Part shown: positions 43,967-46,900 of the stretch, piece after piece
How the letters are laid out: every line of letters starts with the position of its first letter
How positions within the stretch are numbered: the stretch's first letter is position 1
Assembly (NCBI GenBank): GCA_009836625.1
Contig: VXVC01000001.1
Location: forward strand, 1 to 64,000
Direction of reading: 5' to 3'
DNA: 64,000 nucleotides
Origin: Holophagales bacterium
GTDB taxonomy: Bacteria; Acidobacteriota; Thermoanaerobaculia; Multivoradales; Multivoraceae
Notes under the pieces: generated by a model
The model's input: only the letters and a program-made list of their open reading frames with translations
Told to the model about the DNA's origin: nothing
The model's database searches: none
Translations under genes and position numbers: made by a program

Positions 43967-46900
43967 ATGACGGACACTTCAGTTGCGCAGAACGGTCACC
44001 GCGACGGCAACGGCAACGGGCGGATCGACTTCTCGACCATCGAGACGACGCTGGCAATTCCCGACCTGATCGGGGTTCAGCGCCGCTCGTACGATCGGTT
44101 CCTGCAGATGAGCCTGCTCCCGGAGGAGCGGATGAACCACGGTCTGCAGGCGGTCTTCACGGGGATCTTCCCGTTCTGGGACTTCCGGGAAACCTGTTCG
44201 CTCGACTTCGTGAGCTACTCGATCGGCGACTGGCAGTGCCGCTGCGGCGACCTGAAGGGGCTCGAGTATCTGCGCATGTCGTGCACGAACTGCGGCTCGA
44301 AGATCATGACCGACCACCCGCTCGAGGACAGCGTCGGCTGCCCGAGCTGCGGCGCGGTCAACGCGAACCGGGTGACCAAGTGCGACACCTGCGGCGGGCC
44401 GGTCGAACTGCAGCTCAAGTACTCGATGCCGGAGTGCCGGGAACGGGGCATGACCTACGCCGTGCCGCTCAAGGTCACGTTCAGGCTCTTCGTCTACGAC
44501 AAGGACCCGGAAACCGGTCAGAAGATGATGCGGGACGCCAAGGAGGAAGAGGTCTACTTCGGCGAGATCCCGCTGATGACCGACACCGGCACCTTCATCA
44601 TCAACGGCACCGAACGGGTGATCGTGAGCCAGCTGCACCGCAGCCCCGGCGTCTTCTTCACCCGCGACAAGCGCGTCTACCTTGCGAAGATCATCCCCTA
44701 CCGCGGCTCCTGGGTCGAGTTCGAGTACGACCAGAAGGACATCCTGTCGGTCCGGATCGACCGCAAGCGGAAGTTCTACGGCACCGTCTTCCTGCGCGCC
44801 CTGGGCCTGGAGACGAACGAGCAGATCCTGCGCCAGTTCTACACCGCGCTGCCCCTGAGCATCGAGGGCGGCGGCGTGTATCGCCTGGGCATCGGTCCCG
44901 AGGTGCTGGAGCGCGAACGCCTGCGCGAACGCTCGAGCCGGGGCGTGCGTCACCGCTACAGCGTCTTCGCCGGTCTGACGCTGGACGAGACGGCGATCGA
45001 GCGGCTGGACGCCGGCGACAACATCGAGGCGGAGGTCGGACCGCAGGAACTCGAGCCGGCTTTCCTGATCGCCGATGTGATCGACCAGGACACCGGCGAG
45101 GTGCTGCTCGAAGCGAACGAGCCGATTCCCGAGGATCTCGACGAGCGGCTCGACGGGCGCAACCACAGTGAGCTCGAGGTGTTCTTCCCCGACTGGGAGC
45201 TGTGCGGCGCCACGATTTCGAACACCTTGGCCAAGGACACGACCAAGGACACCAAGGAAGCGCAGATCGAGATCTACCGGCGCATGCGTCCCGGTGACCC
45301 GCCGACCCACGAGAGCGCTCGTTCGCTCTTCTACGGGATGTTCTTCGACGCCAAGCGCTACGACTTCTCCCGGGTGGGCCGCTTCAAGTTCAACATCAAG
45401 CTCGAGAAGGAAGTGCCGGTCGACCAGAAGACTCTCTCCGCGGAGGACTTCTACCGGGTGATCGAGTACCTCCTGCAACTGCAGAAAGACGTTGGTCGCG
45501 TCGACGACATCGACAACCTGGGCAATCGCCGCGTGCGCGCAGTCGGCGAGCTGCTCGAGAACCAGTTCCGGGTCGGCCTGGTGCGGATGGAGCGAGCGAT
45601 CAAGGAGAAGATGTCGGTGCACCAGGACATCGACTCGGCGATGCCGCACGACCTGATCAACTCCAAGCCGGTCATCGCGGCGATCAAGGAGTTCTTCGGT
45701 TCGTCCCAGCTCTCGCAGTTCATGGATCAGACGAATCCGCTGTCCGAGGTCACCCACAAGCGCCGGCTGTCCGCCCTTGGCCCCGGCGGACTGTCGCGCG
45801 AGCGCGCGGGCTTCGAGGTCCGCGACGTGCATGCCTCCCACTACGGCCGCATCTGTCCGATCGAGACTCCCGAGGGGCCGAACATCGGCCTCATCTCCTC
45901 GCTGGCGACCTACGCCCAGATCAACGACTACGGCTTCATCCAGAGCCCGTACAAGAAGGTGGAGGGCGGGCGCGTCATTGACCACTTCAAGGTGATCAAG
46001 CCCGGCGACGGCACGTTCGCCCTGGGCCAGATCGTGTCGGCCGACGAACTTGTGGCGGAGAACAACCGCCTCAAGCGGAACAAGAAGCGGCAGGTGGAAG
46101 CCGAGCCGCAGGCCTTCTACCTCACTGCCTGGGAGGAAGAGAAGTACATCATCGCCCAGGCCAACGCCAAGATCGACGACAGGGGCTTCCTCGAGAATGA
46201 GCGGCCCGTGGCGCGCGCACGCGGCGATTTCGTGACGGTCGACCGGGAGCGCGTCGACTACATGGACATCAGCCCGAAGCAGCTGGTGAGCGTGGCCGCG
46301 GCCCTGATTCCGTTCCTCGAGAACGACGACGCGAACCGCGCCCTGATGGGTTCGAACATGCAGCGTCAGGCCGTACCCCTGCTGCGCTCGGACTCGCCGA
46401 TCGTCGGCACCGGGCTCGAGGGGATCGTAGCTCGCAACTCGGGTGCGGTGGTGCTGTGCCAGCGTGCCGGCGTCGTCGATTCCGTGGACGCCGACCGGGT
46501 GATCGTCCGGGTCGAGGGCGCGGATCCGGAGACCGGCGAGCCGCGTGAGTTCGGCGCCGACATCTACCAGTTGACCAAGTTCCGCCGATCGAACCAGAAC
46601 ACCTGCGTGCACCAGAAGCCGATCGTCGACGAGGGCCAGCGGGTGGCCCGGGGAGACGTCCTGGCCGACGGCGCCTCGACCGAAGAAGGCGAACTTGCCC
46701 TGGGGCGCAATGTTCTGGTCGCCTTCATGCCCTGGCGGGGCTACAACTTCGAGGACGCGATCCTGGTTTCCGAGCGCCTCGTACGGGACGACGCCTACAC
46801 GTCGATCCACATCGAGGAGTTCGAGATCGAGGCGCGCGACACGAAGCTCGGCCCCGAGGAGATCACTCGGGACATCCCCAACGTCTCAGAGGCGGCCCTC

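Follow-up and report, generated by a model that had tools for sequence, protein, structure and literature searches.

A cysteine-rich insert in the RNA polymerase beta subunit of Acidobacteriota, probably a two-site module related to the zinc-binding domain of beta'

Few machines in life are as conserved as the core RNA polymerase, and the Acidobacteriota are a group of bacteria that is abundant and little studied. Bacterial RpoB is known to carry lineage-specific inserts (beta i4/SI1, i9, i11, and the BEAN domains; PMC2939025, PMC11515920), and these are lineage-restricted domains of more than 40 residues that occupy a loop of beta and have been lost in some lineages. The N-terminal zinc-binding domain (ZBD) of beta' (RpoC) is a second close point of comparison; it contacts RNA (PMC9378689) and the KOW domain of RfaH (PMC11001881). 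Here, we describe an insert of the first kind with a likeness to the second, encoded in a 64,000-nucleotide stretch of DNA from a Holophagales bacterium (contig VXVC01000001.1, positions 1 to 64,000; hereafter the window), whose class, Thermoanaerobaculia, is placed in Acidobacteriota by NCBI. Like the known inserts, it is a domain of more than 40 residues restricted to some lineages; it differs from them in its eight conserved cysteines, and the main text of the BEAN paper mentions none of zinc, cysteine or the protrusion. No description of the insert was found in literature searches, which did not cover the main catalogue of polymerase inserts (Lane et al., cited in PMC2939025), so that an earlier listing there is possible. 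A probable metal-binding domain in almost a whole phylum, probably duplicated between the two largest polymerase subunits, is unusual, and it gives the acidobacterial polymerase a surface that model organisms lack.

Position and conservation of the insert

The RpoB of the window scored 1797.3 bits against the NCBIfam rpoB equivalog TIGR02013, above the cut-off of 801. Alignment with MG1655 RpoB placed the insert between the residues that correspond to E77 and P78 of E. coli beta (table 1). For most bacterial RpoB chains in the PDB, the stretch that matched best began at aa 149-154, just beyond the insert. In the best match, residues 86 and 150 were aligned to chain residues 79 and 82, respectively. 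An earlier note on this DNA, made from the sequence alone, had proposed that extra residues replace a short linker near the beta1/protrusion region and that they hold four cysteine pairs. Both proposals held: 61 residues were extra relative to E. coli and the PDB chains, they lay in the expected region, and all eight cysteines (aa 91, 93, 106, 109, 125, 128, 139, and 142; nt 44237-44392) were where that note had put them. The segment was absent from E. coli and from the solved RpoB structures of other phyla; coverage outside the phylum comprised these solved structures, E. coli, and one stray contig (L183), and occurrence elsewhere is possible.

Table 1. Features of the rpoB-rpoC region (positions in the window; residues are those of RpoB)
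Feature	Positions	Strand	Residues	Basis
rpoB, RNA polymerase beta subunit	43967..48238	+	1423 aa	open frame; TIGR02013
Lineage-specific RpoB insert, beta1-lobe/protrusion	44231..44413	+	aa 89-149 (61 residues)	
Outer beta'-ZBD-like finger, N-terminal half, cysteine pair 1 (C91, C93)	44228..44272	+	aa 88-102	
Putative inner zinc ribbon in the finger loop, pairs 2 and 3 (C106, C109, C125, C128)	44273..44368	+	aa 103-134	
Outer beta'-ZBD-like finger, C-terminal half, pair 4 (C139, C142)	44369..44410	+	aa 135-148	
Strand RDAKEEEVY, aligned to E. coli beta KDIKEQEVY (115-123)	44531..44557	+	aa 189-197	alignment
rpoC, RNA polymerase beta' subunit, source of the comparison domain	48249..52478	+		
RpoC N-terminal ZBD core, segment matched by insert profiles	48444..48521	+		

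Among 35 divergent members, the eight cysteines, G87, and W89 were invariant and the segment aligned without gaps in 73 columns, which argues that the insert is not a chance feature. At each level of divergence, the insert changed more quickly than the RpoB on either side of it, with a crude pN/pS of 0.26-0.33; thus, the cysteine framework is kept while the surface drifts. An AF2 model of RpoB aa 19-620 was confident over the insert (block-mean pLDDT 78-88); short strands flanked each of the inner knuckles, and the insert began and ended in strands at aa 88-90 and 147-149. The isolated insert was modelled poorly (pLDDT 54.5), and Foldseek gave no significant fold match for it.

Linked losses of the cysteine pairs

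We addressed the pairing of the cysteines through natural variation. Cysteine states were read in 289 distinct sequences, of which 280 keep and fully cover the domain, and all eight cysteines were retained in 265 of these 280. Pairs 1 and 4 were broken together, with pairs 2 and 3 whole, in 14 inserts from three lineages, and neither pair 1 nor pair 4 was ever broken singly. In particular, 11 sequences of family f12 (L204-L210 and L391-L394) carry C91S, C93S, and C139D and have kept the inner ribbon; all f12 sequences read were without the outer site. In L201 (G184), C91S accompanied the loss of C139, and L293 and L297 (f21; genomes G319 and G317) carry C91S and C139S, with C93D in addition in L297. 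C142 was kept in all 14 of these sequences, and C93 in some. The reciprocal case, in which pairs 2 and 3 were broken together with pairs 1 and 4 whole, was seen in one insert (L258, from G132), whose eight positions read CCSACTCC; pairs 2 and 3 were likewise never broken singly. Among the 280 inserts, none broke pair 1 with 2, 1 with 3, 2 with 4, or 3 with 4.

When L293 and L297 are counted as one, these variants amount to about four separate loss events (f12, G184, G319/G317, and G132), three of which speak for the linkage of pairs 1 and 4 and one for that of pairs 2 and 3. If the partner of a lost pair were random, four agreements would arise by chance with a probability of 1/81. Because the cysteine losses co-occur in just these pairings, the metal sites are most likely formed by pairs 1 and 4 and by pairs 2 and 3. 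The joint loss of pairs 2 and 3 in L258 alone and the short strands that flank both CxxC knuckles in the AF2 model are consistent with a putative inner site of two CxxC knuckles. We consider it highly probable that the insert is nested in this way, and zinc is the probable ligand.

The earlier note had read the insert as a tandem, with a beta'-like finger built from pairs 1 and 2 and a classic zinc ribbon from pairs 3 and 4 appended to it. Several resemblances speak for such a layout: the CxC-x12-CxxC spacing of pairs 1 and 2 is that of RpoC, only RpoB itself ranked above RpoC when a profile of the contiguous first half alone was searched against the whole genome (E 0.0012 for RpoC; next match E 0.36), and pairs 3 and 4 alone resemble RanBP2-type and eL40 fingers. 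The RpoC match sustained the likeness that the note had seen between the first half and the RpoC zinc finger. The tandem pairing itself was rejected on the cysteine linkage and must be regarded as very improbable: none of the 15 cysteine-loss variants follows it, pair 1 was lost with pair 4 and never with pair 2, so that the four contiguous cysteines of the CxC-x12-CxxC motif do not behave as one site, and pairs 3 and 4 were, without exception, never lost together.

With pairs 3 and 4 taken as a unit, RBM10 (E 0.00068) and eL40 (E 0.00046) were matched, Pfam PF00641 stayed under its cut-off (E 0.0042), and the best Pfam zinc-ribbon family, Zn_ribbon_3, reached 19.6 bits against a cut-off of 27 (E 6e-4). 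Since the linkage assigns pairs 3 and 4 to different sites, we set the RanBP2/NZF/eL40 reading aside as probably a look-alike. The inner CxxC-x15-CxxC of pairs 2 and 3 aligned without gaps, over both pairs, with archaeal Rpo12 (4qiw_P; E 0.0016 for the full profile and 0.017 for the ribbon alone), the counterpart of eukaryotic Rpb12. Rpo12, however, is a separate subunit, and its scores equal those of any small zinc ribbon.

Resemblance between the outer finger and the beta' zinc-binding domain

With the inner ribbon removed, pairs 1 and 4 share with the beta' ZBD both the CxC-x12-CxxC spacing and the flanks DWxCxCG ... CDxCGxxV, and the joined profile of the two segments carried this pattern. 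Searched against the whole genome, the joined profile matched RpoC at E 1.8e-6, whereas the next match outside the polymerase had E 0.15; against the PDB, all 60 matches listed, with a best E of 2.4e-4, were either beta' subunits or the gamma subunits of cyanobacteria. In hhalign comparisons with the RpoC ZBD, the join of pairs 1 and 4, which was picked among 42 joins tested and so carries a bias in its favour, scored 50.3, compared with 38.8 for contiguous pairs 1 and 2 and 42.5 for pairs 1 and 3. Shuffling the non-cysteine columns of the pair-4 segment reached 50.3 in 0 of 150 trials, and in 0 of 200 when the join was re-optimised each time over six positions. By contrast, shuffles of the pair-2 segment did as well as the unshuffled segment in 46 of 150 trials, and the score of the pair 1 and 3 join was reached by 7 of 150. 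Taken singly, pair 4 matched the ZBD with an hhalign probability of 80%, versus 9% and 30% for pairs 2 and 3. Thus, a likeness beyond cysteine spacing was evident for the pair-4 flank and lacking for the pair-2 flank. Because the pair-4 flank is ZBD-like and the pair-2 flank is not so beyond shuffles, the insert reads as a ZBD-like finger that is split, with a ribbon inside. These comparisons strongly suggest that the outer finger is related to the beta' ZBD. It differs from that domain in its place in the RpoB protrusion, in the non-contiguity of its four cysteines, and in the second ribbon held in its loop.

The nested module could instead be real but independent of the beta' ZBD, with the likeness arising from convergence between zinc fingers. 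The matched region spans about 26 residues and is rich in cysteine and glycine, so that scores are inflated, and the join of pairs 1 and 3 also beat most shuffles. We nevertheless regard convergence as unlikely, given that RpoC was the sole strong match in the genome, that beta' subunits filled the PDB listing of 60 matches ahead of all generic ribbons, and that the likeness takes in the DWECxCG and CDxCGxxV flanks. An origin of the outer finger from the beta' ZBD is, in our judgement, probable. The course of events that seems most likely is that a copy of the beta' N-terminal zinc finger passed from rpoC to rpoB ahead of the radiation of the Acidobacteriota; the outer site would be this finger, now split, and a second four-cysteine zinc ribbon would have been inserted in its loop, so that the beta protrusion carries a compact module with two sites. 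We favour this nested module, a beta'-ZBD-like finger split by an inner ribbon, with reasonable though not high confidence as the best explanation overall. The earlier proposal that a beta'-type domain was duplicated into beta and extended with a second ribbon thus survives in its claim of relatedness to the beta' ZBD and fails in its tandem layout.

Distribution, losses, and possible function

The insert is a phylum-wide trait of nearly all Acidobacteriota and is not peculiar to the organism of the window: it was present in about 350 of 365 sampled members. A scan of the collection for the insert gave 581 confirmed matches, the best 80 of which all came from Acidobacteriota or groups within, the closest among these 80 being MAGs labelled Holophagales, Thermoanaerobaculia, or Acidobacteria. 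In the same-order sample, RpoB matches spanned the full length of the insert, except for a second partial copy in G008 and a match that ended early in G020; the class sample spanned it too, except where contigs broke, in G080, and in second RpoB matches. In the two phylum samples (199 and 396 genomes), approximately 3% of the genomes with a readable match were without the insert, and genomes without any match probably reflect assembly gaps. The insert-free genomes were G130, G145, G158 (f19), G170, G203 (f45 g100), G225, G271, G278 (f64), and G244 (f69 g143), and eight insert-free sequences were read directly; three others, G424, G455 (f69 g143), and G335 (f57), were judged insert-free solely from weak two-piece matches.

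On a maximum-likelihood RpoB tree built with the insert removed, four changes were needed, each forced by well-supported branches, and insert-free genomes were nested among insert-bearing ones, also inside family f45. Because of this nesting, the simplest reading is that the insert was ancestral in the phylum and was then lost repeatedly, about four times. Together with the faster evolution relative to the flanks, these losses mean that the insert is non-essential. The insert-free relatives within a family could serve as natural deletion controls, and the natural one-site variants as ready-made test proteins.

In G244 (L075, f69), RpoB retains the insert as a shortened remnant, NWDECGWGDEARGLVHEIGGRRMALNLKY, that lacks the metal-binding cysteine set, and the domain is apparently decaying. 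The stray contig of G088 (L183, contig C19) encodes a second, E. coli-like, insert-free RpoB that grouped with E. coli in the tree and is probably contamination. In G080 (L182, contig C20, 3000-8500), the RpoB N-terminus and the insert were missing upstream of GGMTYSVPLKV, with unrelated sequence instead, which looks like an assembly error or a deletion.

It could also be argued from the losses, the faster evolution, and the absence of one whole metal site in several lineages that the module has no partner and is a dispensable structural relic. This reading, which concerns function only, appears rather improbable in view of the 265 of 280 inserts that retain all eight cysteines, the pN/pS of about 0.26-0.33, and the remaining site, which stays whole where the other is gone. 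Its surroundings offer another view of the module. The strand RDAKEEEVY (aa 189-197) lies beyond the insert, and its E. coli equivalent covers beta residues 117-119, which we take to be the exact RID-binding positions. In other bacteria, this strand is in the region where the Mfd and CarD RID domains bind. Their binding site is on the beta1-lobe protrusion, close to the upstream part of the bubble formed in transcription (PMC4593161, PMC7864632). Because the protrusion binds these RID domains and the beta' ZBD contacts RNA and the RfaH KOW domain, we tentatively propose that the insert may offer partners a place to dock on the upstream side.

A contact with nucleic acid at the upstream side, of the kind that the beta' ZBD makes with HK022 putRNA (PMC9378689), would also be compatible with the nested anatomy. 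The precedent of the beta' ZBD as an RNA contact and the mildly basic N-terminal half of the insert (+2.1 on average) agree with it; the second half is mildly acidic, however, the mean net charge of the whole insert is about 0 (range -6 to +5), that of the window organism is -2 before the cysteine thiolates are counted, and strong conservation of a basic residue is confined to K/R92 and R103. We therefore consider direct nucleic-acid contact quite unlikely as the role of the module.

CarD was considered as an obligate partner and rejected, since CarD-like genes occurred in insert-free genomes and the insert-bearing G216 and G277 showed solely an Mfd-sized match; the presence of CarD did not track the insert. 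The genome of the window has both a CarD-sized and an Mfd-sized CarD/RID match. Five genomes (G216, G277, G155, G139, and G243) gave a single, Mfd-sized CarD/RID match each, and a separate CarD gene thus seems to be absent in some Acidobacteriota. In addition, two copies of tuf (EF-Tu), at 39257-40450 and 55968-57161, flank the region analysed here; because they are identical at 1193 of 1194 bases, a recent gene conversion or duplication is suggested.
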